The translations under genes and the position numbers were made by a program. Below are positions 14,035 to 42,982 of a stretch of 64,000 bases of DNA, one piece after another. Source of the DNA: Amycolatopsis bartoniae. GTDB lineage: Bacteria > Actinomycetota > Actinomycetes > Mycobacteriales > Pseudonocardiaceae. Within the stretch, counting starts at the first letter, position 1; the number at the start of each line of letters is the position of its first letter. The notes under the pieces are model-generated. The model had not been told where the DNA came from and ran no database searches. It worked only from the letters and a program-made list of their open reading frames with translations. Location of the stretch: NCBI RefSeq assembly GCF_014191255.1, contig NZ_JACHWH010000009.1:1-64000 (forward strand). Reading direction: 5' to 3'.

Positions 14035-14064
14035 CACCGGCGACGGAGACCAGCGCAACCGAGA

Positions 14065-14580: not shown

Positions 14581-16998
14581 CCTCGCCGATACGCCCGGGG
14601 GCACCGTCGCCTCCAGCGTGAAACGCTCGTTGACACAGCGCCAGCTGCTGCGGATCGTGCCTCGGGGCGACTCGTACTCGGCCTCTGCCCACGTCAGGGG
14701 GCCCGGCACCGGGGCGATCACGATCCGCTCGTAACCCGGCGCCGCCGAGCGGATGCCGGCCACTCCTTCGATCAGCCAAGCCCCGACGGAGCCGAGCGAG
14801 TAGTGGTTGAACGAGTTCATCGCCGCCGACGCGAAGCCCTCCTCATCGGTCCAGCCGTTCCACCGCTCCCAGATCGTCGTCGCCCCGCGGTCGATCGTGT
14901 AGCCCCACGACGGGTACGTCCGGTTGGTCAGCAACCGGTGTGCGAGGTCGCCGTACCCGTTCGCCGCGAGGACCGGGCACAGCAGCCCCACCCCCAGGAA
15001 CCCCGTGGTCAGGTGCCCGCCGTGCCGCTCGATGTTCGCCGCCAGATGCGCGGCGGCGCGCGACCGCAGCTCCTCCGGCACCAGGTCCATGCCCAGCGCA
15101 AGCGCGTACCCCGTCTGCGTGTCGCCGGTGACCCGTCCGTCGGCGTCCAGGTGGTCGGCGCGGAACACCTCCACCAGGTCGGCCCGCAGCTTCCGGTACT
15201 CCGCCGCGGCCGCCGCTTTTCCCAGCACCTCGGCCATTTCCGCCATCAACGCCGCGTCGTGCGCCCAGTACGCGGCCGCCACCAGGTCTCGCGACGTGTC
15301 CTCCCCCGCGGACAACCAGTCGCCGTAGTCGTTGTGCCGCCGGTGCCGCCACCGCAGATCCGGGTTGTTACGCCGGAGAAAGCCCAGATAACTGTCCATT
15401 GCGGACCAGTGTCGACGTAGGATGTCCGTGTCCCCATAGGTGCGGTACAGCAGCCACGGCAGGATCACCCCGGCGTCGGCCCACGCGGGCGCGCCGTCGC
15501 GCGTGGTGGGCACCTTCGGCGCCACGTCCGGGTACACGCCCTCCTCCGACTGCGCGTCCAGCACGTCGTCGAGCCAGCGGGTGAAGAACGCCGACACATC
15601 CATGATCAACGCCGCCGTCGGCGCGAACACCTGCGCATCCGCGAGCCAGCCCATGCGCTCGTCGCGCTGCGGGCAGTCCGTCGGCAGGCCGACGACGTTG
15701 CCGCGCAGACCCCACTCGATGTTGCTCCACAGCTTGTTCACCAGCTCGTCCGAACACCGGAAGCGCCCGGCTCGCGGCATGTCCGTGTGCAGCACGCGAG
15801 CGACCACGTCGGGCGGCGCCGTGCTGCCTTGGATTTCTGCATACCGGAATCCGTGTACGGTAAACCGTGGTTCGTATACTTCGTCGATATCGCCGGCCAC
15901 GACAATGTCCTCGGCGTCTGCCGTCCGCAGGTTGTCGCGGTACAGCTCCCCCTCGGAAAGCGCTTCCGCGTGCCGCAGCCGCAGAGTCTCCCTCGCCGGG
16001 ACTCGCACGCGGAGTCGGCCGACCAGGTTCTGTCCGAAGTCGACGATGAACCTGTCCTCGCCCACCCGGTCGATTCGTTGCGCTACAAGCTCTTTCGTAA
16101 CACGGACAGGTTCCCCCCGATCCGCGACCATCGGCACGCCGTCGTGCTCCCGAGTCAGCACCGCCCGCGAGTCCACAAGAGACACCGAAGCGTCGTACGA
16201 CTCACCACGCAGGAGATCCGCCCCGCGCACGGGACCGTAGCCCGACACCCAGTGCTCGTCGGTACCCACCACGAACACCCCGTCGACGTGCAGCTCGCAG
16301 CGGAACCACGGGTGACGGCCGTAGAGGTTGCCCGGCCGCCGCGGATCGCTGCCGACGAAACCCGAGTACCAGCCGTCGGCGAGCGTCGCGGTCAGCACGT
16401 TCTCCCCCGGCCGCAACAGGCGGGTCACGTCGACGACGTGGTACGTCTGACGTTGGACGTAGTCTGTCCAGCCGGGCACCAGCTCGGCATCGTCGACGCG
16501 CTCGCCGTTCAGCTCCACCACCGCGAGCCCGCGTGCCGTCACGTACAGCAGAGCGGGTGCCACCTCGGCCGAGAACGTCCTACGTAGTACCGGCGCCGGA
16601 GGCATGCCGCGCCGGTTCGTCGGCCCGTACCGGACGGCGGGGTCCACCACGCCGGGGTCGCCGCGGAGGTCGTGCGCGATCCACGGTGCAGTCCAGGTGA
16701 TCCCCGTGTGCCAAGCAGCGGGCTCGCTCCACGGCCCTGGTTCGCCGTGCTCGTCCCACACGCGCGCCCGCCAGGAGTACGTCCGGGCGGGCTGCAGTTC
16801 CGGCCCCGCATAACGGACTTCGAGACTTTGTCCTGAGTGGACGATGCCGGAGTCCCAGTGCCCGTCGACCTGGATCTGGTACGCCGTCTGCTCCCGACTG
16901 TCTCCGCTCAGCGCCCACCGCAGCCGCGGGGCCGCGACATCGACGCACGGAATCCCGGCGCGGTGCTCGCAGCGCAGGCCGACCGCGCGCAGGGTCAT
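14518..16998 (-). CDS. Alpha-L-rhamnosidase (GH78)
   Basis: 826-residue glycoside hydrolase that removes terminal alpha-L-rhamnose. It opens with a beta-sandwich region (PRLRWAL, YSWRARVWDEHG, near 25-90). A second beta domain carries VELNGERVDD and DGWYSGFVG. A further one has VDFGQNLVGRLRVRVP, and then the (alpha/alpha)6 barrel. Signature DCPQRDERMGW with the general-acid region and the WTDEEGFASAAMNSFNHYS region are intact. No signal peptide is evident, so it is probably cytosolic. ATG 16996-16998 overlaps the stop of the transporter gene as ATGA, giving translational coupling. It likely acts on rhamnosides imported by that transporter. Its 3' end seeds repeat array A. Confidence 0.92.
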   Translation of the reverse strand: MTLRAVGLRCEHRAGIPCVDVAAPRLRWALSGDSREQTAYQIQVDGHWDSGIVHSGQSLEVRYAGPELQPARTYSWRARVWDEHGEPGPWSEPAAWHTGITWTAPWIAHDLRGDPGVVDPAVRYGPTNRRGMPPAPVLRRTFSAEVAPALLYVTARGLAVVELNGERVDDAELVPGWTDYVQRQTYHVVDVTRLLRPGENVLTATLADGWYSGFVGSDPRRPGNLYGRHPWFRCELHVDGVFVVGTDEHWVSGYGPVRGADLLRGESYDASVSLVDSRAVLTREHDGVPMVADRGEPVRVTKELVAQRIDRVGEDRFIVDFGQNLVGRLRVRVPARETLRLRHAEALSEGELYRDNLRTADAEDIVVAGDIDEVYEPRFTVHGFRYAEIQGSTAPPDVVARVLHTDMPRAGRFRCSDELVNKLWSNIEWGLRGNVVGLPTDCPQRDERMGWLADAQVFAPTAALIMDVSAFFTRWLDDVLDAQSEEGVYPDVAPKVPTTRDGAPAWADAGVILPWLLYRTYGDTDILRRHWSAMDSYLGFLRRNNPDLRWRHRRHNDYGDWLSAGEDTSRDLVAAAYWAHDAALMAEMAEVLGKAAAAAEYRKLRADLVEVFRADHLDADGRVTGDTQTGYALALGMDLVPEELRSRAAAHLAANIERHGGHLTTGFLGVGLLCPVLAANGYGDLAHRLLTNRTYPSWGYTIDRGATTIWERWNGWTDEEGFASAAMNSFNHYSLGSVGAWLIEGVAGIRSAAPGYERIVIAPVPGPLTWAEAEYESPRGTIRSSWRCVNERFTLEATVPPGVSARVVLPGGEEVDVGPGRHRFGE

Positions 16999-18482
16999 CC
17001 GTCCTCCTCCATGAGTGCCCGGATCCGCCGGACGGCCAGGAACAGGATGATCCCGGCGAGCACAAGCAGCAGGCCCTGCGAACCGAAGTACACCGGCTGC
17101 GGCAGCACGGTCTGCAGCTTCACGACCTGCCCCTGGACCGCGCCACCGGTCGCGGTGGACAGGTACCACAGCCCGATCGTCTGCGTGGCGAACCGCGCGG
17201 GTGCGAGCTTCGTCGACGCGCTCAGCCCGACCGGCCCGAGGTGCGTCTCGGCGATGCCCTGCAGGAAGAAGAACCCGACGATCCACCACACGAGCGCCTT
17301 GTTCCCGCCGGTCGCGGTGGTCGCGGCGAGCCCGAGCAGCAGGAACGACGCGCCGATGAACGTCAGGCTGATGCCGAACTTCGCGGGCGTGGCGGGCTGG
17401 CGGCGGCCCATCTTCGCCCAGATCAGCACGAACGCGCTGCCCAGCACGATCATGAACGCGGCGTGCGCGGACTGGAAGAACCCGACCGGCACCTCCCAGC
17501 CGAACATGCTGCGGTTGACCTTGTCCTTGATGAACAGGCTCACCGTCGAGCCCGCCTGGTCGTAGACGAGCCAGAACAACGCGGCGGCGGCGAAGAACCA
17601 GACGAATGCCGTCAGCCGCGAGCGCTCCGACCGGTCCACGTCCGGCGTGCGGAACATGGCGGCGAAGTACACGATCGGCACCACGATCCCGACGAGGCTC
17701 ATGATGTTGATCAGCTGCCCGAGGCTGAACCACTTGAGCAGCACGTCGATCACCAGCAGCACCACCGCGACCCCGGACCACAGCGCGGCCTTGCGGGTGA
17801 GCCGGCGGCGCTCGTCGGGTGTGGCGGGCTGCGGCGCGACCTTGCCCACGTCGCCGAACTTCCGCCGCCCCACGGCGTACACGGCGAGACCGAGGATCAT
17901 GCCGATGCCGGCGGCGATGAACGCGACGTGCCAGCTGAACGCCACGGCGAGCGCGCCGGTGACGAACGGCGCGGTGAACCCGCCGATCTGGATCGAGAGG
18001 TAGTACAGCGTGAAGCCGGGATCGCGCCGCGGATCGTCGGGCGCATACAGTCCACCGAGGATCGTCGGCACACTCGCTTTGAGCGTGCCGGTGCCGATCG
18101 CGATCAGCACGAGCGCGACGTAGGACGTCGGTACCGTCGGAATCGACAGCACCAGGTGCCCGAGCGCGATCGTGCAGCCGCCGACGAACACCGCGCGCTG
18201 CGAGCCCCACAGCCGGTCGGCGATCCAGCCGCCGGGCAGCGACAGCATGTAGACGGTCGAGTTGTAGACGGCGTACAGGCTCGCGGCGGTGACCGCGCTG
18301 AGGCCCAGCCCGCCTTCCGCGACCGGCGCGGCCATGAACAGCACCAGGATCGCCCGCATGCCGGCGAAGCTGAACCGCTCCCACAGTTCGGTGAAGAACA
18401 GGGTGCCGAAGCCGGCGGGCTGGCGCAGGCGCACGCCGGAGGACTCCGTCCGTGGCGCTGCGGTGTCGACGCTGTGGGGCAC
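16995..18482 (-). CDS. POT/PTR family proton-dependent transporter
   Basis: 495-residue MFS-type symporter with 12-14 hydrophobic segments. The POT signature ExxERFxxxGMR is present at FFTELWERFSFAGMR (about 28-42), followed by YNSTVYMLSLPGGWIADR and GTGTLKASVPTILGGLY, which match PTR motifs 1 and 2. Such proteins import di- and tripeptides, and plant members also carry glycosides and nitrate. Coupling to a rhamnosidase suggests a glycosylated substrate here, which is inference. GTG 18480-18482 follows a GGAGG site. The gene is divergent from a GntR regulator with palindromes in the shared promoter. Confidence 0.88.
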   Translation of the reverse strand: MPHSVDTAAPRTESSGVRLRQPAGFGTLFFTELWERFSFAGMRAILVLFMAAPVAEGGLGLSAVTAASLYAVYNSTVYMLSLPGGWIADRLWGSQRAVFVGGCTIALGHLVLSIPTVPTSYVALVLIAIGTGTLKASVPTILGGLYAPDDPRRDPGFTLYYLSIQIGGFTAPFVTGALAVAFSWHVAFIAAGIGMILGLAVYAVGRRKFGDVGKVAPQPATPDERRRLTRKAALWSGVAVVLLVIDVLLKWFSLGQLINIMSLVGIVVPIVYFAAMFRTPDVDRSERSRLTAFVWFFAAAALFWLVYDQAGSTVSLFIKDKVNRSMFGWEVPVGFFQSAHAAFMIVLGSAFVLIWAKMGRRQPATPAKFGISLTFIGASFLLLGLAATTATGGNKALVWWIVGFFFLQGIAETHLGPVGLSASTKLAPARFATQTIGLWYLSTATGGAVQGQVVKLQTVLPQPVYFGSQGLLLVLAGIILFLAVRRIRALMEEDG

Positions 18483-18543
18483 GGTTCCTCCATTGGACTA
18501 CGTGCGGACCGGGAAAAGCTGCTGGAGGCACTATGTCTCGTCT

Positions 18544-18575
18544 ACGGTTAACCGTCAACGGTCGATGTTGACCGT
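18544..18575. promoter_or_regulatory. Tandem palindromes upstream of POT and GntR genes (putative GntR operators)
   Basis: ACGGTTAACCGT (18544-18555) is a perfect 12-bp palindrome. ACGGTC (18558-18563) and GACCGT (18570-18575) form a second inverted repeat with a 6-bp spacer. The two share an ACGGT/ACCGT core and lie in the divergent GntR/POT promoter region, the usual place for an autoregulatory FadR-type site. The decamer GTCAACGGTC (18554-18563) bridges them and recurs at 25973. Confidence 0.6.
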
Positions 18576-18647
18576 CTACACAACCAGCGCCTAGAGTCGG
18601 TGCCGGAAATCGCCGCGCCCGCGGTGGTCCGGTACAGGGGGTACGTG

Positions 18648-19322
18648 ATGCAGGTCAGTCCGCTCCGGCAGGCGCCGCTGGGCGAGCAGCTGCTCGAACA
18701 GCTGCGGGCCCTCATCGTGCGGGGCGAGCTGGCGCCGGGACAGCACCTGGTCGAAGGCTGGGTGGCCGAGAACTTCGGCGTGAGCCGTGGCCCGGTCCGT
18801 GACGCGCTGCGGCAGCTGGAACTCGAAGGACTCGTGGAGACGCGCCGCCGTGGGGTGTTCGTCCGGGGGCTGACCGACGTCGACCTCGTCGAGCTGTACT
18901 CGCTGCGGGGCGCGCTGGAAGGGCTCGCGTTCCGCGGCGCCCACGCACGGCGCGGCAAAGCCGACTGGACCCCGATCGAGGAAGCGCTTTCCCGCATGCG
19001 CGCCGCCGCCGAGGCCTCGGATCCCGCCACCTTCGCCGCGGCGGACCTCGACTTCCACAGCGCGTTCTACGTGGTGGCGGGCAACAAGCGGCTCGCCGCG
19101 ACGTGGGCGATGCACCGGCCGATCTTCGCCGCGATGCTGGACGTCACCAACACCCGCGACCGCGACCTGCGCCCGATCGCGTCGGACCACGCCGAGCTCG
19201 CCGACGCCCTCCGGTTCGGCACGCTCGAGTACGCGCTCGCCCACCTCGTCGAGCACCTCGACGGCTCGTGTGAGCGCATGCGCGCGGCGCTCGCCGAGCT
19301 GACCGAACGCTCAGCCTCCTGA
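18648..19322 (+). CDS. GntR family regulator (FadR/FCD type)
   Basis: 224-residue transcription factor. The winged helix-turn-helix includes ELAPGQHLVEGWVAENFGVSR and GPVRDALRQLELEGLV (about 25-60). The all-helical FCD effector domain follows, with DLDFHSAFY and a late HAELADAL histidine segment that commonly binds metal and carboxylate ligands. ATG 18648 is favoured by AGGGGG eight bases upstream; GTG 18645 is the adjacent alternative. It is divergent from the POT-rhamnosidase operon and 23 bases upstream of the aldolase gene, so it probably controls both sides through the palindromes. Confidence 0.9.
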   Translation: MQVSPLRQAPLGEQLLEQLRALIVRGELAPGQHLVEGWVAENFGVSRGPVRDALRQLELEGLVETRRRGVFVRGLTDVDLVELYSLRGALEGLAFRGAHARRGKADWTPIEEALSRMRAAAEASDPATFAAADLDFHSAFYVVAGNKRLAATWAMHRPIFAAMLDVTNTRDRDLRPIASDHAELADALRFGTLEYALAHLVEHLDGSCERMRAALAELTERSAS

Positions 19323-19345
19323 CTCCTCCTTCCCGAAAGCAGGCC

Positions 19346-20176
19346 ATGCACGCCGAAGTCCTCGCCGCCGTCCCCACGTTGTTCACCGTTGACGGTGAAC
19401 TCGACCTCGCCGCGAACGCCCTGCTGTACCGGCGGCTCGCCGGCCGCGTGTCCGGCGTGTTCGTCGCCGGGACCACGGGCGAGTTCCCGGCGCTGGAGCA
19501 CGGCGAACGGGTGGAGCTGGTCCGCGCCGCGCTGGAGGTCTTCGCTCCGTCCGGGGTGGTCGCGCACGTCGGGGCGGCGAGCACGCGGCAGGCCGTCCGG
19601 CTGACGCACGACGTGCGCGTGCTGGGGGTGCGGCGGCTGGCCGCGCTCACTCCGTACTACCTGCCCGCCGACACCGCCGCCGTGCGGCAGCACTTCGGCG
19701 CGATCACCGCGGTCGCGGACGGCGCCGAGGTGTACGGCTACCTCTTCCCCGAACGCAGCGGCATCGACGTCACTCCCGCGGAGTTCGCCGGGATAGCGGC
19801 GGAGACGGGGTTGGCCGGGGCGAAGTTGAGTGGTGCCGCCGCGGACGCCCTGCCCGCGTTCCGGGCGGCGCTGCCGGACGGCCTGCGGCTGTGGTCGGGC
19901 GCGGACGCCGCGCTCGCGTCGGTCGTGCGCGCGGGCGGCGCGGGCGTGGTGTCCGGGCTGTCCGCGGCCGAGCCGGAGCCGTTCACGGCGCTCGCGGCCG
20001 CCGTCGCCGCCGGTGACGCCGAGGCGGAACGAGAGGCGCAGGCCCGGGCCGACCAGGTGCTCGCCGCCCTCGGCGGAACCCCGCAGGGCATCAAGGCCGC
20101 GCTGCACGCCCAGGGCATCGGCACCGCCACCATGCGCATGCCGGTGACCGAGGCGAGCCCGCTCGCGATGGGGTGA
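19346..20176 (+). CDS. Dihydrodipicolinate synthase/N-acetylneuraminate lyase family aldolase
   Basis: 276-residue class I aldolase, a TIM barrel that cleaves or forms a C-C bond next to pyruvate. The pyruvate-binding GTTGE motif is at about 43-47, the tyrosine of the proton relay falls in YGYLFPERSG (about 131-140), and the Schiff-base lysine in GLAGAKLSG (about 155-163). Since lysine biosynthesis is usually encoded elsewhere with dapB, and this copy sits behind a GntR regulator and a rhamnosidase operon, a catabolic keto-deoxy sugar-acid aldolase is more likely than DapA. A 20-bp palindrome lies within its first codons. Its 3' end begins repeat array B. Confidence 0.85.
   Translation: MHAEVLAAVPTLFTVDGELDLAANALLYRRLAGRVSGVFVAGTTGEFPALEHGERVELVRAALEVFAPSGVVAHVGAASTRQAVRLTHDVRVLGVRRLAALTPYYLPADTAAVRQHFGAITAVADGAEVYGYLFPERSGIDVTPAEFAGIAAETGLAGAKLSGAAADALPAFRAALPDGLRLWSGADAALASVVRAGGAGVVSGLSAAEPEPFTALAAAVAAGDAEAEREAQARADQVLAALGGTPQGIKAALHAQGIGTATMRMPVTEASPLAMG
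19381..19400. promoter_or_regulatory. Perfect 20-bp palindrome inside the aldolase gene
   Basis: GTTCACCGTTGACGGTGAAC has two perfect 9-bp arms around TG and lies 35 bases after the aldolase start codon. Its ACCGTTGAC core is the reverse complement of GTCAACGGT found in the GntR promoter. It is a possible intragenic operator for the neighbouring GntR protein; chance codon symmetry is the alternative. Confidence 0.45.
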
Positions 20177-20700
20177 GCGTGGGGAGGATGTCGGTCGCTG
20201 ATCCGCGCGTTGCCGCCATTCGCGACGGCGTGAGCGGTGGGAGGGCTGAGAGAAGTCGGCTGCCCGCGTAGGCCGATCACCGTCGCTCGCGGTGGCGTGA
20301 GTGGCGGTGAGGCCAGGTGAAAGTGGCCGGTCGCGTGGGTCGGTCACCAATCCGCATTCGCGGTGCTCCCACTGCGGTGAAGTGGGTGGCGGTGAGGCCG
20401 CGAGAAGACGCCGCTTGCGTTGGCTGGTCACTGATCCGCAGGCCCATCGCCGCCAGCCACGGTGAAGTGAGCGGTGGGAGGACGGGAGAAGGCGGCCGCC
20501 GCGGCGGTCGATCACCGATCCGCACGCACGTGCCACCACCCACGGCGGCGTGAGCAGCGGCAAGGTCGGAAGAAGGTGGCCGTCCGCGTGGCCGATCGCC
20601 GATCCGCACGTGCGTTGGTGCCGCTCGCGATGGGGTGAGTCGCGGGAGGGCTGGGAGAAGCACCCGCGCGCGGGGGCCGATCACCCAACCGCGCAAGTCA
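20159..20700 (+). repeat. Degenerate tandem array B (55-90 bp units after the aldolase gene)
   Basis: About seven imperfect units begin near 20173, 20228, 20297, 20377, 20465, 20550 and 20635. Each runs from a GTGAGCGGTGGGAGG-like head to a GATCACCGATCCGCA-like segment and a CTCGCGGTG-like tail. The 19-mer CCGCTCGCGATGGGGTGAG containing the aldolase stop codon (20159-20177) recurs exactly at 20621-20639, so the units carry copies of the gene's 3' end. The roughly 600 bases between the aldolase and the Lrp gene hold no other feature apart from the Lrp promoter. Confidence 0.8.
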
Positions 20701-20763
20701 CGGCGGGGTGGACGCAAGCGATGGCGCCCAGCCAGAGCAGCACTCGCGGGGGTCCAGTGCAGG

Positions 20764-20811
20764 AATTCTTGCACAACCACCCTTGACGTGACGGATTCTT
20801 GCACCAAGAAT
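20764..20811 (+). promoter_or_regulatory. Lrp operon promoter with palindromic operator
   Basis: ATTCTTGCACCAAGAAT (20795-20811) is a perfect palindrome with 7-bp arms and a 3-bp centre. A second, partial copy of the half-site, ATTCTTGCACAA, lies at 20765-20776. TTGACG (20783-20788) and AAGAAT (20806-20811) are 17 bases apart and fit -35 and -10 boxes. The predicted transcript start is at or next to the GTG at 20819, so the message would be leaderless and the operator would block the -10 box. This is consistent with Lrp autoregulation. Confidence 0.65.
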
Positions 20812-25332: not shown

Positions 25333-25977
25333 CAACACCGACTCCACCGCCCGCACGACGACGTCCGCGATCCGGTCCGGCTGCGTGAGCATCGCGAGGT
25401 GATCGGCGTTCTCGCGGTACACCGGCCAGCCGCGGCGCGCGGCCTCGTCGGCGAAGAGGTCGTACGTCTCACTCAGCCGGACGTAGGCTGACCGCGACTC
25501 CGGGGCCGCGGGCGCCGGTTCCTCGAAGAACGCCAGCGGCAGCCTCGGCACCTCGGCGAAGAACCGGTCCCGCAGCCGCGGCGGCAGGTCCTCGAACGCC
25601 TCGCGGGGAAACCATTCGTGCCACGGCGGGAGCCACCCCTCACGCGCCAGGCCGAGCAGCTGCTCGCCCAGGGCGGGCGGCGCGGTCTCGAACCAGCTGC
25701 GGCCCGGACGCGGCAGCACCGCGTCCACGAACACCATCCCACGATCACCGTGCTGGGCGATCGCGGGCAGCAGCGCGCCAGCGCCGCTGTGCCCCACCAC
25801 CACGTCACCCCGGACCGACCGAGCCGCCTCGACGAGCTTCGCGTGGTACGGCGGCCTGTCGGGAAACCCGGAGGGCACGCCCTGCACCGGAAAGCCGCGG
25901 CGGCGCAGGACTTCGGCCACCGGCTGCCAGGTGTACGGCCCCACCAGCGGGCTGTGGACGAGCACGAAGGCGGTCAA
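25327..25977 (-). CDS. Alpha/beta hydrolase (small esterase-like)
   Basis: 216-residue hydrolase. The oxyanion region is FVLVHSPLVGPYTWQPV (about 4-20), the nucleophile elbow is VVGHSGAGAL (about 60-69), and the catalytic histidine is probably in ENADHLAML (about 189-197). The short cap resembles salicylate-esterase/EstX-like proteins. The start is uncommon: TTG 25975-25977, with no better ATG or GTG in frame nearby. The upstream region is packed with GTCAACGGT-type repeats. Its stop codon lies within the MerR operator. The substrate is unknown. Confidence 0.82.
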   Translation of the reverse strand: MTAFVLVHSPLVGPYTWQPVAEVLRRRGFPVQGVPSGFPDRPPYHAKLVEAARSVRGDVVVGHSGAGALLPAIAQHGDRGMVFVDAVLPRPGRSWFETAPPALGEQLLGLAREGWLPPWHEWFPREAFEDLPPRLRDRFFAEVPRLPLAFFEEPAPAAPESRSAYVRLSETYDLFADEAARRGWPVYRENADHLAMLTQPDRIADVVVRAVESVLP

Positions 25978-26020
25978 CGGTCACCCGTCACCCGTCGACG
26001 GTTGACAGTCGACCGTTGAC
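25973..26020. promoter_or_regulatory. Direct and inverted repeats upstream of the hydrolase gene
   Basis: GTCGACGGTTGAC (25994-26006) and GTCGACCGTTGAC (26008-26020) are 14-bp-spaced direct repeats differing at one base. GTCAACGGTC (25973-25982) is the exact reverse complement of GACCGTTGAC (26011-26020). The block covers the TTG start and the 5' flank of the hydrolase gene. The same decamer occurs in the GntR promoter at 18554-18563. Confidence 0.55.
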
Positions 26021-26050
26021 CGCAGCGGCGAGCCCGCCGCCAGCTGGGCA

Positions 26051-34439: not shown

Positions 34440-34510
34440 GGCGCCTCCTTTCGGGTCGTGGGTCGAATACCCCGACCGGGGGACGGGAAACACGGACAAT
34501 TTCTTCAGTC

Positions 34511-34526
34511 AAAACTGGACAGTTTT
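34511..34526. promoter_or_regulatory. Perfect 16-bp palindrome before the MarR-MFS operon
   Basis: AAAACTGGACAGTTTT has 7-bp arms around GA and lies 17 bases before the MarR start, in an A/T-rich pocket between the CsbD and MarR genes. It is the likely MarR autoregulatory operator. Confidence 0.75.
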
Positions 34527-34542
34527 AGCTGAAGGATTTACC

Positions 34543-34995
34543 GTGGGTGACATGGCAGACGAAGGCATCGCACCGTCGGCGCTGGCCGCGGCGCAGGAGG
34601 TACGGGCGGTGATCGGGCGGGTGCGGCGGCGCATCCGGGAAGCGACGCGCGGTGAGGACCTCACCCCGTCCCAGACCGCCGTGGTCACGCGGCTGGACCG
34701 CGACGGGCCGATGTCCGCGAGCGACCTCGCGGCGGCCGAGCGCGTGCGCCCGCAGTCGATGGCGGCGTGGCTCTCCGCGCTCGACGAGCACGGCTGGATC
34801 GAGCGGCGGCCCGACCCGGACGACGGCAGGCGCCAGCTGATCTCGCTCAGCGAGACGGGCCGGGCGCAGCTCACCGACGGCCGCCGCGAGCGGTCGGAGT
34901 GGCTGGCCCGCGTCCTGAACGACGAGTACAGCGAGCAGGAGCGACAGCAGATCCTCGACGCGATGGCGCTCCTCGACCGGCTCACCCGGTCATGA
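34543..34995 (+). CDS. MarR family transcriptional regulator
   Basis: 150-residue winged-helix regulator. LTPSQTAVVTRLDRDGPMSASDLAAAERV is the start of the DNA-binding domain, DGRRQLISLSETG the wing, and a C-terminal dimer helix follows. GTG 34543 is chosen because AAGGA lies six bases upstream; ATG 34552 has poorer spacing. Its stop overlaps the MFS start (ATGA), so regulator and exporter are coupled. It probably represses its own operon through the 16-bp palindrome and is released by a phenolic or drug-like ligand. Confidence 0.9.
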   Translation: MGDMADEGIAPSALAAAQEVRAVIGRVRRRIREATRGEDLTPSQTAVVTRLDRDGPMSASDLAAAERVRPQSMAAWLSALDEHGWIERRPDPDDGRRQLISLSETGRAQLTDGRRERSEWLARVLNDEYSEQERQQILDAMALLDRLTRS

Positions 34996-36353
34996 CCGCG
35001 CCGTTCGACCGCAGGCTCATCGCGCCGATGGTCCTCGGCACGATCCTCAACCCGGTCAACTCCTCGATGATCGCGGTCGCGCTGGTGCCGATCGGCCTCG
35101 CGCTCGGCGCGCCGCCCGGGCAGACCGCGTGGCTGGTGTCGGGGCTGTACCTCGCGACCTCCGTCGGGCAGCCGGTGGTGGGACGGCTCGTCGACACCTA
35201 CGGCCCGCGCCCATTGTTCCTCGCCGGCACCGCGCTGGCCGGGGTCGCGGGCCTGCTCGGCACGTTGTCACCGTCCCTGCCGGTCCTGGTTGTCGCGCGC
35301 GTGCTGCTCGGGTTCGGCACCTGCGCGGGCTATCCCGCCGCGATGTACCTCATCCGCAGCGAAGCGCGCCGCACCGGGCAGGACAGCCCGTCGGGCGTGC
35401 TGACGGCGCTCGCCGTGTCCGCGCAGACGGTCGCCGTCGTCGGGCCGACGCTGGGCGGGCTGCTGATCGGCGCGGGTGGCTGGCGCACGGTGTTCGCGAT
35501 CAACATCCCGCTGTCGGTGGCGTGCGTGGTGCTCGGCGCGCTGCGCCTGCCCCGCACCCCGCGCGAATCCGACCGGCCGCGCCTGGACGTGCCAGGGATC
35601 CTGCTGTTCGCGGCGATGCTGACCCTGCTGCTGTTGTTCCTGATGGACCTCAAGGCCGGGCACTGGTACCTGCCGGTGCTGGTCGTCGCGGCGGGCGCGG
35701 CGTTCGCCGTGCGGGAGCTGCGCGTGCCCGAACCGTTCCTGGACCTGCGGGTGCTCGGCGGAAACGGCGCGCTGCTGGGCACGTTCGGCCGGACGCTGCT
35801 GTCGTTCGTCGTGTCGTACGCCTTCCTCTACGGGTACACGCAGTGGCTGGAGGAGTCGCACCACCTGTCGGCGTCGGCGGCCGGGCTGGTGCTGCTGCCG
35901 ATGTTCGGCACGGCGATCCTGGTGTCCGCGACGACCGGCCGCCATCCGCAGGTGCGGGGCAAGCTGCTCGTCGGGGCGGTCGTGCTGGTCGTCACGTGCG
36001 TGCTGCTGGTGCTGCTGGAGCCCACGACCCCGATCTGGCTGCTGGTGGGCGTGTCCATCGTTTCCGGTGTGCCGCAAGGACTGCTGAGCCTGGCGAACCA
36101 GAACGCGTTGTACCACCAGGCGGATCCCGAGCGGATGGGGTCTTCCGCGGGACTGCTGCGCACCTTCACCTACCTCGGCGCGATCGTCGCCTCGGCGGCG
36201 AACGGCGCGTTCCTCGCGTCCGGCGCTGACACCTCCGGGCTGCACTCGCTCTCGGAGTTCCTGATCGCGGTCGCCGCCGTACTGCTGGTGGTGACCGTGC
36301 TCGACCGGTCCCTGCGCCGCATCGGCGCGGTACGAAAGGAAAGCACGGCATGA
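34992..36353 (+). CDS. MFS transporter (drug:H+ antiporter type)
   Basis: 453-residue major facilitator with 12-14 hydrophobic segments. MFS motif A appears as GRLVDTYGPRPLFLAG (about 63-78), the antiporter motif C region as GPTLGGLLIGAGGWRTVF (about 151-168). A hydrophilic central loop has RESDRPRLDV. It likely exports a toxic or signalling compound. It is translationally coupled at both ends: ATGA with the MarR gene and ATGA with the isochorismatase-like gene. Confidence 0.92.
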   Translation: MTAPFDRRLIAPMVLGTILNPVNSSMIAVALVPIGLALGAPPGQTAWLVSGLYLATSVGQPVVGRLVDTYGPRPLFLAGTALAGVAGLLGTLSPSLPVLVVARVLLGFGTCAGYPAAMYLIRSEARRTGQDSPSGVLTALAVSAQTVAVVGPTLGGLLIGAGGWRTVFAINIPLSVACVVLGALRLPRTPRESDRPRLDVPGILLFAAMLTLLLLFLMDLKAGHWYLPVLVVAAGAAFAVRELRVPEPFLDLRVLGGNGALLGTFGRTLLSFVVSYAFLYGYTQWLEESHHLSASAAGLVLLPMFGTAILVSATTGRHPQVRGKLLVGAVVLVVTCVLLVLLEPTTPIWLLVGVSIVSGVPQGLLSLANQNALYHQADPERMGSSAGLLRTFTYLGAIVASAANGAFLASGADTSGLHSLSEFLIAVAAVLLVVTVLDRSLRRIGAVRKESTA

Positions 36354-36931
36354 CACTGACCACTGTGGACGAACGCACCGCGCTGGTGCTGATCGACCTG
36401 CAACGCGGCATCGTCGGGATCCCGACGGTCCCGCACTCGCCGGCGGAGGTGGTGTCGCGGGCTTCCGAGCTGGCCGAGGCGTTCCGCGCCCACCGGCTGC
36501 CGGTGGTGCTGGTGCGGGTCAGCGCGGCGCCGGACTGGTCGGACGCCGCGCCGGGCCGCACCGAGGCGCGCGGGCACGGCGGGAACTGGCCCGAGGGCTG
36601 GGACGAGGTGGTCGACGAGCTGCGGCGGCCCGGCGACATCGTGGTGACGAAGCGGAACTGGGGCGCGTTCTACGGCACGGACCTGGACCTGCAGTTGCGC
36701 CGCCGCGGAATGACGCAGATCGTGCTGGGCGGAATCGCGACGAGCGCGGGCGTGGAGTCCACGGCCCGCGCGGCGCACGAGCACGGCTACCACGTGACGC
36801 TGGCGACGGACGCGATGGCCGACCGCGACGAGGAGGTGCACCGGCACAGCGTGGAGCGGATCTTCCCGCGTCTCGGGGAAACGGGCACCACGGCGGAAAT
36901 CCTGGAGCTGCTGGCGAAAACCCGCCCGTGA
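36350..36931 (+). CDS. Isochorismatase-like hydrolase lacking the catalytic Cys
   Basis: 193-residue cysteine-hydrolase fold protein. The Asp is in VLIDLQRGI (about 13-21) and the Lys in VVTKRNWGAFYGT (about 98-110), as in the family. The usual nucleophile position (T-N-x-C-V) reads IATSAGVESTARAAHEHGY, so Gly replaces Cys. True isochorismatases (EntB, PhzD) also have Gly there, so hydrolysis of a vinyl ether rather than an amide is conceivable. It is third in the MarR-MFS operon, and its 3' end forms the first unit of repeat array C. Confidence 0.85.
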   Translation: MTLTTVDERTALVLIDLQRGIVGIPTVPHSPAEVVSRASELAEAFRAHRLPVVLVRVSAAPDWSDAAPGRTEARGHGGNWPEGWDEVVDELRRPGDIVVTKRNWGAFYGTDLDLQLRRRGMTQIVLGGIATSAGVESTARAAHEHGYHVTLATDAMADRDEEVHRHSVERIFPRLGETGTTAEILELLAKTRP

Positions 36932-37390
36932 CGGCGGCGGACCGGGTGGTTCACGTCCGAGCCGCCCGGCCCGACACCCCCGGTGCTACCTCCACCCGGC
37001 CGCGGCGACATGGATGCCACTGCGGAACTTCGGAATCACAGCAAACCCGCACCCGATGGCGACGGGCTGGGCGGCTCACACCGAGCCGCCCGGCCCACCT
37101 CACCGACACCCCCGGTGCTACCTCACCCAGCCGCCACCACACGGGGCGCCACAGCGGAACTTCCGCAACCACAGCAAACCCGCACCCGACGGCGGCGGCC
37201 CGGACCGCTCACACCGAGCTGCCCGCCCCCTCACCGACACCCCCGGTGCTACCTCACCCAGCCGCCACCACACGGGCGCCACAGCGGAACTTCGGAATCA
37301 CAGCAGACCCGCACCCCATGGCGGTGGGCCGAGCCGCTCACACGAGCCGCCCGGCCCACCTCACCGACACCCCCGGTGCTTCCGTGGCGT
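36917..37390 (+). repeat. Degenerate tandem array C (about 131-bp units)
   Basis: GACACCCCCGGTGCT recurs at about 36973, 37105, 37236 and 37366, giving a regular 130-132 base period, with strong conservation of AACTTCGGAATCACAGC and AAACCCGCACCCGA segments between. The first unit begins inside the isochorismatase-like gene: AAAACCCGCCCGTGACGGCG (36917-36936, containing the stop) aligns with AAACCCGCACCCGACGGCGG further on. It fills the space between convergent genes. The 70 bases after it, up to the ABC stop at 37460, hold nothing recognisable. Confidence 0.85.
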
Positions 37391-37459
37391 CACCGCCGTC
37401 GCCGCCTCGTCGAGCTGCCAGCCTCCGGGGCGACCGCCACCCTGGCTGGCGAACTCACC

Positions 37460-39328
37460 TCACTCGGCCGCGGCGAACTGCGACGAGTAGAGCCGGTGGT
37501 AGGCGCCGTGCGCGTCGAGCAGCTCCGCGTGCGTGCCCTGCTCCACGATGCGGCCCGACTCCATCACCAGGATCAGGTCGGCGTCGCGGATCGTGGACAG
37601 GCGGTGGGCGATCACGAAGCTCGTGCGGGACGAGCGCAGCGCGGCCATCGCGTGTTGCACGAGCGCCTCTGTGCGGGTGTCGACGGAGCTGGTCGCCTCG
37701 TCGAGGATCAGCAGCGCCGGCTGCGCGAGGAACGCCCGCGCGATCGTCAGCAGCTGCTTCTCCCCCGCGCTGACGTTGGTGCCCTCGTCGTCGATCACCG
37801 TGTCGTAGCCGTCGGGCAGGGTGCGCACGAACCGGTCGACGAAGGTCGCCTTCGCCGCCGCCACGATCTCCTCCTCGGTGGCCTCCGGCCTGCCGTAGGC
37901 GATGTTGTCGCGGATCGTGCCGCCGAACAGCCACGTGTCCTGCAGCACCATGCCGATCCGCGAGCGCAGGTCCTCGCGGCGCAGCTGGGTGATGTCCACG
38001 CCGTCGAGCGTGATGCGCCCGGAGTTCAGCTCGTAGAACCGCATGATCAGGTTGACCAGCGTGGTCTTCCCGGCGCCGGTGGGCCCGACGATCGCGACCG
38101 TGTGCCCCGGTTCCGCCACCAATGACAGGTCCTCGATGAGCGGCTGGTCGGGGCTGTAGGAGAAGCTGACGCCGGAGAACTCGACGCGTCCCCGCGGGTC
38201 GGCGATCTCGGCGCTCTCCGCCGGCCCCGGCTCCTGCTCCTCGGCGTCGAGCACCTCGAAGACACGCTCGGCGGACGCGACACCGGACTGCATGAGGTTC
38301 GCCATCGACGCGATCTGCGTCAACGGCTGGGTGAACTGCCGCGAGTACTGGATGAACGCCTGCACCTCGCCGAGCGTCAGCGCGCCGGAGGTGATGCGCA
38401 GCCCGCCGACCACCGCGACGACGACGTAGCTGAGGTTCGACAGGAACATCATCGCGGGCATGATCAGCCCGGACACGAACTGCGCGCCGCGTGCCGCGTC
38501 GAACAGCTCGTCGTTGCGGCGCCGGAACTCCGCCTCGGACTCGCGCTGCCTGCCGAAGACCTTCACCAGCTGGTGCCCGGTGAACGCCTCCTCGATGTGG
38601 GCGTTGAGGGCACCGGTGTTGCGCCACTGGGCGATGAACAGCTTCTGCGCGCGCTTGCCGATGAACCCCGTGATGAAGACCGACGCCGGGACCACGGCGA
38701 GCGCGATCAGCGACAGCAGCGGGGAGATCGTCAGCATCATGACGATCACGCCGATGACCGTCAGCAACGACGTCATCAGCTGGCTCAGCGTCTGCTGCAG
38801 GGTGGAGGAGATGTTGTCGATGTCGTTGGTGACGCGGGAAAGCAGCTCACCGCGCGGCTGGCCGTCGAAGTAGCGCAGGGGCAGCCGGTGCAGCTTCGCC
38901 TCGACGTCCGCGCGCAGCCCGAACACCACCCGCTGGACGACGAGGTTCAGCAGGCGGCCCTGCAGCCAGCCGAAGACGGAGCTCGCGACGTAGAACGCCA
39001 GCACCCACGTGAGGACGGTACCGAGGCGGCCGAAGTCGATGCCCGCGCCGGGAATGCCACGCAGGTGGCCGAGCACGCCGTCGAAGATGACGTCGGTGGC
39101 CTGGCCGAGCAGTTTCGGCCCGGCCACGGTGAACGCCACGCTGATGACGCCCAGCGCGACGACCGCCGCGAAGGGGACGCGCTCGGGCCGCAGCCGGGCG
39201 ACGAGCCGCCGCGCGGACGGGCCGAAGCTCTTCGCCTTGCTGACGGGCATGGCCATGCCGGGCATGCCACGGCCCATCGGCCCGCCCTGCGGCCGCGGCC
39301 CCGCGGGCCGGTTCGCGGTGGTGGTCAC
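37460..39328 (-). CDS. ABC exporter half-transporter (type IV, ATPase-permease fusion)
   Basis: 622-residue protein. A Met/Gly/Pro-rich N-terminus (MGRGMPGMAMP) precedes six membrane helices (about 45-345) and a nucleotide-binding domain. Walker A is VGPTGAGKTTL, the signature is VSAGEKQLL (the canonical SGGQ is replaced by SAGEKQ), Walker B is ALLILDEATSS, and the H-loop is in AHRLSTI. GTG 39326-39328 behind GGGGAGG is the start. With the other ABC gene upstream it should form a heterodimeric multidrug or lipid exporter. A 1.1-kb repeat array separates the pair, and the open frame through that array is not thought to be coding. Confidence 0.93.
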   Translation of the reverse strand: MTTTANRPAGPRPQGGPMGRGMPGMAMPVSKAKSFGPSARRLVARLRPERVPFAAVVALGVISVAFTVAGPKLLGQATDVIFDGVLGHLRGIPGAGIDFGRLGTVLTWVLAFYVASSVFGWLQGRLLNLVVQRVVFGLRADVEAKLHRLPLRYFDGQPRGELLSRVTNDIDNISSTLQQTLSQLMTSLLTVIGVIVMMLTISPLLSLIALAVVPASVFITGFIGKRAQKLFIAQWRNTGALNAHIEEAFTGHQLVKVFGRQRESEAEFRRRNDELFDAARGAQFVSGLIMPAMMFLSNLSYVVVAVVGGLRITSGALTLGEVQAFIQYSRQFTQPLTQIASMANLMQSGVASAERVFEVLDAEEQEPGPAESAEIADPRGRVEFSGVSFSYSPDQPLIEDLSLVAEPGHTVAIVGPTGAGKTTLVNLIMRFYELNSGRITLDGVDITQLRREDLRSRIGMVLQDTWLFGGTIRDNIAYGRPEATEEEIVAAAKATFVDRFVRTLPDGYDTVIDDEGTNVSAGEKQLLTIARAFLAQPALLILDEATSSVDTRTEALVQHAMAALRSSRTSFVIAHRLSTIRDADLILVMESGRIVEQGTHAELLDAHGAYHRLYSSQFAAAE

Positions 39329-39337
39329 GCCGCCTCC

Positions 39338-40475
39338 CCAGAGGTCGAGTGTCGGTGGATGGTCCCGCCGGGCACGCTTTTCACGCGGATCGGCGGTCGT
39401 TGCGGGGTGAGTGCTTCGTTCGGCGCGCTGTCTGGCCGGGATGGCGCTGTCGCGCGCCCGGTGTCGGACTGCCGCCCGCCTGCCGGGGGGCGAGCTGGCC
39501 GCTGGCTGAGCGCGGTGGACGCACCGCTTGCAGGGAACGTGATCCACCCGGTACCGCAGGACCACCGTGCTCGCTGGTTCGCCGCGGGTGAAGCTGGCCG
39601 CTCGCGGATCGGCGTGTGTTGCGGGGTGAGTGCTTCCTGGGAGCTCAACGCCCTCGGCGCGCCACCGGACCGGGATGGCGCTGTCGCGCGCCCGGTCCCG
39701 CCGGGCTGCCGCCCGCCTGCCGCGGGTAGGGCTGGTCGCTGGCCCGCCGCGGTAGACGCACCGCTTGCAGGGAACGCCAACCACCCGATACCGCAGGCCC
39801 ACCGTGCTCGCTGGTCCGCTGTGGGTCGAGCCGCATTCCCGCCCACCGCCGCGCGTTGCGGGGTGGGTGCTTCGTGGGAGCTCAACGCCCTCGGCGCGAC
39901 GCCGGGCCGGGATGGCGCTGTCGTGCGCCGGTTGTGGCTGGACTGCCCGCCTGCCGCGGGCACGGCTGGCCGCTGGCTGAGCGCGGTGGACGCACCGCTT
40001 GCAGGGAACGTGATCCACCCGGTACCGCAGGCCCACCGTGCTTGCTGGTTCGGCGTGTGTTGCGGGGTGGGTGCTTCGTGGGAGCTCAACGCCCTCGGCG
40101 CGACGCCGGGCCGAGATGGCGCTGTCGCACGCCGGTTGTGGCTGGACTGCCGCCCGCCTGCCGCGGGCACGGCTGGCCGCTGGCTGAGCGCGGTGAACGC
40201 ACCACTTGCACGGAGCGCCAGCCGCCCGGTGCCGCAGGCCCACCGTGCTCGCTGGCCCGTCGCGGGTGGAGTCTCGTTCCCGCCCACCGCCGCGCCTTGC
40301 GGGGTGAGTGCTTCGTTCGGCGTGCCGCCGGGCCGGGATGGCGCTGTCGCGCGCCCGGTCCCGCCGGGCTGCCGCCCGCCTGCCGTGGGGCAAGCCGCGT
40401 CGATCGGCGGGGGCCGCATGGTGGATGCCCTGCCCGTGCGGGACGGTGCCCGCCCGGGCTCCGGAACCCCGTGCC
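39338..40475 (-). repeat. Degenerate tandem array D (204-237 bp units) between two ABC genes
   Basis: TTGCGGGGTG begins units at about 39400, 39619, 39856, 40060 and 40297, spaced 219, 237, 204 and 237 bases. Conserved internal blocks are GGGAGCTCAACGCCCTCGGC, CCGGGATGGCGCTGTCG, GACGCACCGCTTGCAGGGAAC and CCGCAGGCCCACCGTGCTCG. The array is bordered by a 13-bp direct repeat, TCACGCCGCCTCC, at 39325-39337 and 40476-40488, covering the start region of one ABC gene and the stop of the other. Near the lower end, the minus strand would encode HSTSGEAA then a stop, like the genuine upstream C-terminus HSQLTPEEAA. One minus-strand frame is open throughout. Confidence 0.9.
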
Positions 40476-42209
40476 TCACGCCGCCTCCTCGGGGGTCAGC
40501 TGCGAGTGCACGATCTCCTGGTACGTCGGGCACGTGGCGAGCAGCTCGTGGTGTGTGCCGGCGCCCACGATGGAACCGTTGTCCAGCACCAGGATCCGGT
40601 CGGCGTCCAGGATCGTGGAGACGCGCTGCGCCACCACGACCACCGCCGCGTCGCGGGTGTGCGGGCGCAGCGCCCGGCGCAGCGCCGCGTCGGTCGCGAG
40701 GTCCAGCGCCGAGAACGAGTCGTCGAACAGGTAGACCTCCGGCCGCCGCACGAGAGCCCTGGCGATCGCCAGCCGCTGGCGCTGGCCGCCGGACACGTTG
40801 GTGCCGCCCTGGGCGATCGTCGCCTCCAGCCCGCCCGTCATCGCCTCGACGAAATCCTTCGCCTGCGCGATCTCCAGCGCCTCCCACAGCTCCTCGTCGG
40901 TCGCGTCCGGATTGCCGTAACGCAGGTTGCTGGCCACCGTGCCGGTGAACAGGTACGCCCGCTGCGGCACCAGCCCGATCCGCTGCCACAGCACGTCCGG
41001 GTCGAGCTCCCGCACGTCCACCCCGTCGACGAGCACCTCACCCGCCGTGACGTCGATCAGCCGTGGCACCAGCGACAGCAGCGTGGTCTTGCCCGCGCCG
41101 GTGCTGCCGACGATCGCCGTGGTGGTGCCGGCCCGCGCCTGGAACGAGATGTCGCGCAGCACCGGCTCCGCGGCACCGGGGTACCGGAACTCGACGCCGC
41201 GGAACTCGACCTGCCCGTGCGCCCGCAGCTCCCGCACCGGCGCGAGCGGCGGGCGCACCGAGGACTCCGTGTCGAGCACCTCGTTGAGCCGCTCCGCGCA
41301 CACCGCCGCCCGCGGGATCATGATCGAGATGAACGTCGCCATCATCACCGACGCCAGGATCTGCAGCAGGTAGTTCAGGAACGCCGTGAGCGCGCCGATC
41401 TGCATCTCCCCCGCGTCGACCCGATGCGAGCCGAACCACAGCACCGCCACGCTGGAGGCGTTGAGGATCAGCATCACCGTCGGGAAGATCAGCGCCTGCA
41501 GCCGCCCGACCCGCAACGCGGTGTCCGTCAGCGTGGTGTTGGCCGCGCCGAAACGCTGCGTCTCCGCGCGCTCCCGGACGAACGCGCGCACCACCCGGAT
41601 GCCCGACAGCTGCTCCCGCAGCACCCGGTTGACCTGGTCGATGCGCTCCTGCATCAGACGGAACTGCGGCACCATCCGCGTGACGATCAACCCGATCGCG
41701 ATCAGCAGCACCGGCACGCAGACCAGCAGCAGCCAGGACAGCCCCACGTCCTCCCTCAGCGCGAGCACGATGCCCGCGACGCACATGATCGGCGCGGTGA
41801 CCAGCACCGTGCACACCAGGACCACCAGCAGCTGCACCTGCTGCACGTCGTTGGTGGTGCGCGTGATGAGCGACGGCGCGCCGAACTGCGCGACCTCCCG
41901 CGCCGAGAACTGGCCGACCCGCGAGAACACCGCGGCCCGCACGTCGCGGCCGAAGCCCATCGCGGCGCGAGCGCTGAAGAAAACCGCTCCGCCGGAGCAG
42001 AGGATCTGCAGTACCGTGACGGTGAGCATCCAGCCGCCGGTCTTCAGGATGTAGCCCGTGTCGCCGCGGACCACGCCGAAGTCGATGATGTCGGCGTTCA
42101 GGCTCGGCAGGTAGAGCGACGCCACCGTGCCGATCAGCTGGAGCACGAGCACGATCGTGAGCTCCTGCCGGTACGGCCGCAGGTGCGTGCGCAACAGGCG
42201 GATGAGCAC
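40476..42209 (-). CDS. ABC exporter half-transporter (partner subunit)
   Basis: 577-residue ATPase-permease fusion. Six membrane helices (about 15-315) are followed by the nucleotide-binding domain. Walker A is VGSTGAGKTTL, the signature is VSGGQRQRL, Walker B is VYLFDDSFSAL with Asp in place of the catalytic Glu, and the H-loop is VAQRVSTI with Gln in place of His. These are degenerate-site changes typical of one half of a heterodimeric exporter. GTG 42207-42209 is preferred because homologous proteins begin at LIRLLRTHLRPYR and a GGGGGA site precedes it; ATG 42221 is the alternative. It is divergent from a TetR gene. Confidence 0.93.
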   Translation of the reverse strand: MLIRLLRTHLRPYRQELTIVLVLQLIGTVASLYLPSLNADIIDFGVVRGDTGYILKTGGWMLTVTVLQILCSGGAVFFSARAAMGFGRDVRAAVFSRVGQFSAREVAQFGAPSLITRTTNDVQQVQLLVVLVCTVLVTAPIMCVAGIVLALREDVGLSWLLLVCVPVLLIAIGLIVTRMVPQFRLMQERIDQVNRVLREQLSGIRVVRAFVRERAETQRFGAANTTLTDTALRVGRLQALIFPTVMLILNASSVAVLWFGSHRVDAGEMQIGALTAFLNYLLQILASVMMATFISIMIPRAAVCAERLNEVLDTESSVRPPLAPVRELRAHGQVEFRGVEFRYPGAAEPVLRDISFQARAGTTTAIVGSTGAGKTTLLSLVPRLIDVTAGEVLVDGVDVRELDPDVLWQRIGLVPQRAYLFTGTVASNLRYGNPDATDEELWEALEIAQAKDFVEAMTGGLEATIAQGGTNVSGGQRQRLAIARALVRRPEVYLFDDSFSALDLATDAALRRALRPHTRDAAVVVVAQRVSTILDADRILVLDNGSIVGAGTHHELLATCPTYQEIVHSQLTPEEAA

Positions 42210-42230
42210 GAGATCCCCCATCGGAAACGA

Positions 42231-42286
42231 TCCGTATCTAATATGGGCACAGTAGCCGAGGGAAATAAGATACGCAACGTATTTTA
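42231..42286. promoter_or_regulatory. A/T-rich palindromes in the ABC/TetR divergent promoter
   Basis: AAGATACG (42267-42274) and CGTATTTT (42278-42285) are inverted around CAA with one mismatch, extended by a T/A pair on the outside. A related half-site CGTATCT is at 42231-42237. The main palindrome ends ten bases before the TetR start, suiting autorepression and control of the ABC operon. Confidence 0.6.
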
Positions 42287-42295
42287 GGGGAGTTC

Positions 42296-42982
42296 GTGCC
42301 GGAGCCGAAGCCACGCCGCCGGGGCAAGGAACTGGAAGACGTCATCCTCGACATCACGTGGGTCGAGCTGGTGGAAGTCGGCTACAACCGGTTGACGATC
42401 GAGTCGGTCGCGAAGCGGGCGCGGACGAGCAAACCGGTCATCTACCGCCGCTGGTCGAACCGGGCCGAGCTCGTCCTCGCCGCCTGGGCCCGCCAGACCC
42501 CGACCGAAATGGCCGTGCCGATCGACACCGGCAGCCTCCGCGGGGACCTGATCGCCCTGTTCCGCCGCGTCGCCGAACGCGCCAACAGCGTCATGACCGA
42601 GGTGATCGCGGGCGTGATGGGTGAAGCCTTCCGCCACCCCGAGGTGGTCGAGCTGCTGCACCAGCGGCTCCGGCAGTCACCGATGTCCTCGACGCTGCAG
42701 GCCATCGTGGACCGCGCCGTCGCCCGCGGCGAGCTCGACCCGGTGGAGCTGCCCGCCAGGGTGACGAGGGTGCCGCTCGACCTCATCCGCAACGAGACTC
42801 TCCTGTGCCGCGGCCCGATGCCGGAGCAGGCGGTCATCGACCTGGTCGACGAGGTGTACCTGCCGCTGCTGCACGGCCTCGCGGCGCGGTCAGTGGAAGC
42901 GGTGCACGACAGCGTGCCCCTTGCCGCGCGCGATGAGCCAGCGGTTCACGGGTGTGGTCAGCACGAACGCCAGGAGCAGTGA
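42296..42982 (+). CDS. TetR/AcrR family regulator
   Basis: 228-residue regulator. The helix-turn-helix region reads LTIESVAKRARTSKPVIYRRW (about 29-49), with the TetR_C helical domain to about 200. GTG 42296 follows GGGGAG. The last 30 residues (from about 198) are Pro/His/Gln-rich, unlike TetR proteins, and lie entirely within the 93-base overlap with the opposite DUF4396 gene, suggesting stop-codon loss and extension. It is divergent from the ABC exporter and likely its repressor. Confidence 0.9.
   Translation: MPEPKPRRRGKELEDVILDITWVELVEVGYNRLTIESVAKRARTSKPVIYRRWSNRAELVLAAWARQTPTEMAVPIDTGSLRGDLIALFRRVAERANSVMTEVIAGVMGEAFRHPEVVELLHQRLRQSPMSSTLQAIVDRAVARGELDPVELPARVTRVPLDLIRNETLLCRGPMPEQAVIDLVDEVYLPLLHGLAARSVEAVHDSVPLAARDEPAVHGCGQHERQEQ

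Follow-up and report, generated by a model that had tools for sequence, protein, structure and literature searches.

Among described systems, the mycobacterial interspersed repetitive units (MIRU), on which Supply et al. reportedly published in 1997, are closest to the locus analysed here. MIRU units each possess a start and a stop of their own. Our subject is array D, a tandem array located between two half-genes of an ATP-binding cassette (ABC) exporter, ABC1 and ABC2, in the first 64,000 nucleotides (nt) of contig NZ_JACHWH010000009.1 of Amycolatopsis bartoniae (assembly GCF_014191255.1); this whole stretch is called the window. According to one report, MIRU are inserted at start codons such that the inner open reading frame (ORF) is coupled at -4 spacing; the same report states that Rho loads on untranslated RNA and causes polarity (PMC12548453). 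A second publication gives 53 and 77 bp for the units at senX3-regX3 (PMC4213456). Array D resembles MIRU in its site at an overlapping stop/start, in an inner ORF that overlaps both neighbours and in its tandem copies. Below, array D is interpreted as a lineage-specific expansion of the DNA that separates the two copies of a coupled junction after its duplication. Among the literature matches listed, we recognised no description of arrays of this type or of a MIRU-like family in Amycolatopsis.

A duplicated stop/start junction flanks array D

An earlier, sequence-only reading of the window had claimed that the same sequence is present at both edges of the array and that, read on the minus strand, the upper copy holds the stop of ABC1 and the lower one the ribosome site and GTG of ABC2. 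Both claims proved correct: GGAGGCGGCGTGA occurs twice in the window, on either side of array D, as compared to a mean of 0.02 occurrences after shuffling, and a search of both strands located TCACGCCGCCTCC only at the two places listed as J1 and J2 in Table 1. Ungapped extension of the match gave 22 nt with 19 identities (86%), a score reached by none of 5000 single-base shuffles. The further claim that the lower edge keeps a degraded C-terminus of ABC1 (HSTSGEAA) holds for these last 22 nt; homology farther upstream, i. e. in the "HS", was rejected, as the likeness did not exceed chance (P 0.22 and 0.25). If a tandem duplication had reached into ABC2, homology between the array start and the ABC2 start would be expected; none was found (P 0.73). 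The distance from junction to junction is 1151 nt (2 mod 3).

In a scan based on crude gene calls, the 8 nt preceding DTGA were compared for pairs of gene ends and gene starts located 40-2000 bp apart. At least seven matches were seen in only two of 1718 pairs from 1.26 Mb of the own genome (array D and the nuoG/nuoH junction described below) and in none of 472 pairs from 0.4 Mb of G006.

Ancestral state of the ABC pair

ABC1 orthologues were gathered with their downstream junctions, which were then read; the genus sample consists of 19 genomes, the own one (G000) included. A long gap is not the normal state of relatives without an array: in 12 of the 19 (G001, G002, G003, G005, G006, G008, G009, G010, G011, G013, G014, G017) a plain GTGA or ATGA frame leads straight into ABC2, and the other seven have an insert at this position (Table 1). 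In a tree of ABC1, the window genome is placed next to G008 with a support of 99/97, and G009 and G006 are nearby; all three have the plain overlap. The sequence-only reading had proposed that superimposing the two junction copies restores a GTGA overlap, and GTGA is indeed the arrangement of the orthologous pair in the sister G008. When the window was compared with 80 kb of G008, two flanking blocks overlapped by 17 bp in G008, which is the duplicated junction. The overlap in the sister and the 17 shared bp indicate that array D arose on its own lineage at a formerly overlapping junction. These comparisons support a history in which this lineage gained about 1.1 kb and each gene retained its own copy of the junction, in agreement with the earlier claim that 1.1 kb of repeats was added while both genes stayed intact. 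The same reading had regarded the operon as split; the added DNA, however, is spanned by one frame of 384 codons that overlaps both genes. Because of this frame and of the parallel at nuoI/nuoJ, the pair may still be coupled.

The comparison was extended to 110 orthologous loci, with at least three genomes counted twice. At 83 of them the frame runs from DTGA straight to ABC2 (in G018 via an insert that keeps the frame), DTGA is lacking at 12, and in 15 the frame ends earlier. In all 15 cases the following start is overlapped by the stop of this frame or, where frames form a tandem chain, by the final stop. Ten of these bridges were called by script (overlap of 4 or 1 nt); five had been scored as broken and were reassigned by reading: L003, L005 and L011 are 4-nt overlaps, missed since the match began two residues early, and L009 and L023 are chains of tandem mini-ORFs. 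The bridges at the ABC junction belong to several sequence families and are found in Pseudonocardiaceae, Nocardia, Micromonospora, Paractinoplanes, Streptacidiphilus and Kitasatospora, among others; the Nocardia bridge L098 is of the family I type introduced below.

Some of these junctions are noteworthy in themselves. L023 and L025, which belong to the same order and another family, contain MIRU-like 77-bp units, each with its own stop/start, whose frame begins with [VM]SEHTSEERARRGA; in L023, six of them are in tandem. The insert of L006 (G015) follows the ABC1 stop, starts with CTGA and has a frame open to the ABC2 start; by eye, an apparent element remnant lies at its end.

Repeats and reading frame of array D

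The full units u1 to u4 (Table 1) are 222, 204, 237 and 234 bp long and the copies diverge pairwise by about 17%. Unit spacings are multiples of 3 for both anchors used; this is also true for gaps inside the four full copies and for 4/4 self-match offsets. From its start on the ABC1 stop, the frame stays open for its entire length and ends on the ABC2 start; after dinucleotide shuffling, the array was open in this frame in 8.6% of cases. Stops within array D are confined to the third minus frame. Inside the array, we found neither a Shine-Dalgarno (SD) site combined with DTGA nor promoters or terminators conforming to a consensus.

Array D is private to its locus. In the own genome, the unit matched this locus and, among the 40 of 221 candidates that were scored, one 44-bp stretch of a gene (by reading). 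Descent of the unit from this gene (G000:C4:116097, 84% identity, VOC-type by reading) was dismissed, the match being probably due to chance. Scoring of three candidates in each of 249 family genomes gave no match that extends over half of the unit. Short matches occurred in 11/19 genus genomes and 20/249 family genomes, the own one included in both, the longest comprising 130 bp at 70%. Twelve genus matches were viewed: nine lie in ordinary genes (by eye), the exceptions being L126 as well as L123 and L125, which are two copies of one G003 repeat. Among eight family matches viewed, L309 has a nearby self-match, and none resembles an array of the D type.

Table 1. Features of the ABC locus, inserts at the ABC pair in the genus, and loci of family II
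Feature	Position	Strand	Description
ABC1	40476..42314	-	upstream ABC exporter half-gene; protein matches ABC_membrane and ABC_tran; stop 40476-40478; relatives share the part from about 42227
Junction copy 1 (J1)	40476..40488	-	GGAGGCGGCGTGA; contains ABC1 stop
Bridge ORF	39325..40479	-	384 codons; GTG overlaps ABC1 stop, TGA overlaps ABC2 start (4 nt); no coding signature
Array D body	39338..40475	-	diverged tandem units, about 237 bp
First copy (partial)	above 40348	-	
Unit u1	40127-40348	-	full copy
Unit u2	39923-40126	-	full copy
Unit u3	39686-39922	-	full copy
Unit u4	39452-39685	-	full copy
Unit u5 (partial)	down to about 39377	-	
Junction copy 2 (J2)	39325..39337	-	GGAGGCGGCGTGA; SD-like GGAGG and GTG of ABC2
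ABC2	37460..39328	-	downstream ABC exporter half-gene; protein matches ABC_membrane and ABC_tran; GTG 39326-39328
Inserts at ABC pair			array D (own genome); family I in G004, G007, G012, G016 (two copies) and G018 (degenerate, by eye); 356 bp in G015
Family II loci	G000:C1:616725, C1:787199, C4:13574; G006:C1:5898060; G008 at pair matching window 21829		

Bridges at two nuo junctions

Open frames between duplicated or extended junctions are found at three places: at the ABC pair and at two junctions between presumed nuo genes, whose names we assigned by reading sequences and gene order. At nuoG/nuoH of the own genome, an 86-bp tandem duplication of the junction has generated a bridge frame of 29 codons, which by eye resembles the start of nuoH joined to the end of nuoG. 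Among the 19 genus genomes, 11 have these genes at -4 and five at -1, and in G012 the frame runs into nuoH; inserts are restricted to the own genome and G018, and both are bridged.

At nuoI/nuoJ, the frame runs on into nuoJ in G004, G012 and G016. The other 16 genomes have a linker of 61-574 bp, and 13 of these have a frame that opens on the ATGA of nuoI and whose end overlaps the start of nuoJ by 4 or 7 nt. Omission of G001, G017 and G011, whose linkers match that of a relative in length, leaves 13 distinct linkers; 12 of them are bridged versus 2.30 expected (P 4e-9, kinship being ignored and the right frame taken as 1/3). Openness alone gave 12 versus 6.91 expected (P 0.0014). Repeat offsets within the linkers are multiples of three in 18/19 cases, as compared to 14/28 determined by the same method for ten intergenic arrays of the own genome that lie off coupled junctions. 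These controls derive from the 25 arrays of period 40 or more in the sampled 1.26 Mb: 17 were examined, of which three were set aside for their position at a coupled junction and four because they lie within called genes. The bridge peptides are of low complexity; the close pairs within G011/G014/G017 and G001/G013 are 76-85% identical, other matches reach 28-44% only (composition correction and low-complexity filter switched off). The linkers are hypervariable in length and often tandem-repetitive (own linker: L195, G000:C1:710727-711167; others: L317-L333).

MIRU-like families of the genus

Two MIRU-like families were encountered. Elements of family I (loci among L131-L158 and L240-L299 of genus genomes) are mostly 71-77 bp long and consist of a hairpin and the conserved core GGGCCGACCGGGTGCGGGTGTCCCGC; the pattern matches at tens of places in some genus genomes and at three in the own genome. 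The set used comprises 17 of 30 loci, 13 having been dropped as apparently truncated or variant or as apparent chance matches in genes. Among 105 distinct pattern matches, 68 are bounded by DTGA on either side, and 27 of these 68 possess a duplicated junction identical at 12/12 positions; a cross-site control gave a mean of 6.27 of 12. The inner arm of the hairpin is complementary to host bases that precede the target DTGA: at -1/-2/-3, Watson-Crick pairs occur in 53/39/36 of 57 sites versus 31.4/21.2/29.9 after shuffling arms between sites. The arm had been located without those bases, and the sites are imperfectly independent, some being tandem copies or from related species. It looks as if the target were copied or guided.

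Family II elements are about 89 bp long and have an inner frame of 30-31 codons. The family occurs in the own genome, where its core pattern was found at 17 places versus 4 for the reversed control. In the sister G008, one element resides at a GTGA pair that still overlaps at window position 21829. In two copies, the first 10-14 nt seem, by eye, to be the same as the start of the downstream gene. A profile search for remnants of either family in array D gave nothing significant.

Further repeats in the window

Additional tandem arrays are located at 14117-14370, 20192-20692 and 36918-37383. The region 14028-20782 has no counterpart in the sister between flanking blocks. The array at 36918-37383 sits in a stretch (34455-37473) that did not align to the sister; the frame through it is opened by a GTG overlapping an isochorismatase stop. 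At 25970-26023 an inverted self-match of 54 bp (85% identical) was seen.

Interpretation

We assign a probability of about 0.6 to the reading that array D goes back to the duplication of a coupled junction, that codon-phased repeats then enlarged the DNA between the copies, and that this DNA is presumably still translated as a ribosome bridge. The GGAGG...GTGA junction of the overlapping pair was duplicated on the own branch, possibly by a short tandem duplication such as that of nuoG/nuoH or because a short element inserted, as at this site in relatives; the duplicated junction is compatible with either. Both genes remained intact because the junction holds the stop of one and the SD site and start of the other. 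Subsequently, the DNA between the junction copies grew in multiples of three, the likely cause being tandem duplication. The main constraint on this middle part would be an open frame from DTGA to DTGA with a length of 2 mod 3. Ribosomes ending ABC1 would re-start on the array, translate it and reach ABC2 via the usual 4-nt overlap; their passage would keep Rho off 1.1 kb of GC-rich RNA, and the bridge peptide itself would probably be dispensable.

One alternative is that a MIRU-like element inserted at GTGA, thereby duplicating SD and start, and that its body was later overwritten by tandem expansion. The five genus genomes with a family I element at this very junction, the frequent junction duplication by this family and the presence of family II in the own genome speak for such an origin, which we nevertheless judge unlikely, as the array lacks a significant trace of either family and neither the sister nor the next relatives have an element at the ABC junction. 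Array D could also be a neutral minisatellite private to this locus, its long frame a by-product of high GC and the genes translated separately. High GC does favour open frames (4142 of 5000 shuffled units had at least one), 25 arrays of period 40 or more lie in the sampled part of the genome, copies lack an excess of third-position differences, and a crude scan of 1.74 Mb, which counted 4-nt overlaps only, found no general excess of bridges (22 in the real frame, 19 in the control frame). The exact position of the array between two junction copies, the phasing of its full copies by 3 and the bridging of most nuoI/nuoJ linkers speak against neutrality, which we regard as improbable. It is very improbable that the 384-codon frame encodes a genuine, rapidly evolving protein of the operon, even though the frame is open and preceded by GGAGG with a start at the coupled position. 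Differences between copies number 118/83/84 at codon positions 1/2/3, and GC at these positions is 0.71/0.78/0.78, without the GC3 excess of genes in this region, so that neither signature supports a protein gene; moreover, the frame is absent from the sister site, and among the candidates scored in the family genomes no match spans even half a unit.

Several observations weigh against the ribosome bridge, including the nearly equal counts of the crude scan. Alignment gaps in the partial end copies are not all multiples of three, the avoidance of stops in the array is not significant (0 versus 1.62 expected, P 0.17, substitution simulation), and the ABC2 frame is likewise open through the units. 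ABC2 has its own SD-like site and could be translated independently. At the ABC pair, the insert of G018 is fused in frame to ABC2, and G015 has CTGA in place of DTGA. The homologous 189-bp nuoI/nuoJ linkers of G011, G014 and G017, genomes that do not form one exclusive clade in the ABC1 tree, are unbridged (3/16), and three of the ten control arrays are also fully phased by three.

Array D provides a natural experiment on translational coupling, since the same pair overlaps in the sister and here has an open frame that connects the two genes across 1.1 kb. Translation of the bridge would mean that some long "intergenic" linkers of GC-rich operons are translated spacers without a useful product; this would explain hypervariable linkers such as nuoI/nuoJ and bear on the annotation of orphan ORFs. 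At about even odds, coupled stop/start junctions of these actinomycetes are recurrent birthplaces of ribosome bridges, i. e. of locus-private arrays in which the frame is selected and the peptide is free; translation, coupling and protection from Rho would thus extend over the inserted DNA, and MIRU would be a mobile special case. On this view, DNA that enters an overlapping pair would be retained only when it copies the junction and forms an ORF, which would set a rule of selection for the sites at which MIRU-type elements and arrays can persist.

Comparison with known systems

Judged by its sequence, array D is not a MIRU by membership, nor is it detectably a member of family I or II. It shares with MIRU the inner ORF at a -4 overlap with the downstream gene; the overlap is present at both ends and coupling is predicted. 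In contrast to the interspersed MIRU, array D is undispersed, apart from the 44-bp match mentioned above, and its units of about 237 bp contain neither in-frame stops nor inner stop/start junctions: array D is one long frame, whereas MIRU have a mini-ORF per unit. To the MIRU-like families of its genus no sequence relation was detected. Family I elements use the same insertion point in five other genus genomes and duplicate a junction of similar extent, from GGAGG to TGA, but are much shorter and are characterised by a hairpin and a core that array D lacks according to the profile search. The nuoG/nuoH duplication is similar in that both junction copies are intact, the inner frame overlaps both genes and the length is 2 mod 3, but at 86 bp it is unexpanded. 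We propose a class of bridge linkers, in which the DTGA frame of gene 1 stays open until it overlaps the start of gene 2, repeats come in multiples of 3, the sequence is locus-private and the ancestor was overlapping; array D shows all of these features. In our best reading, the bridge would work like MIRU without being one.

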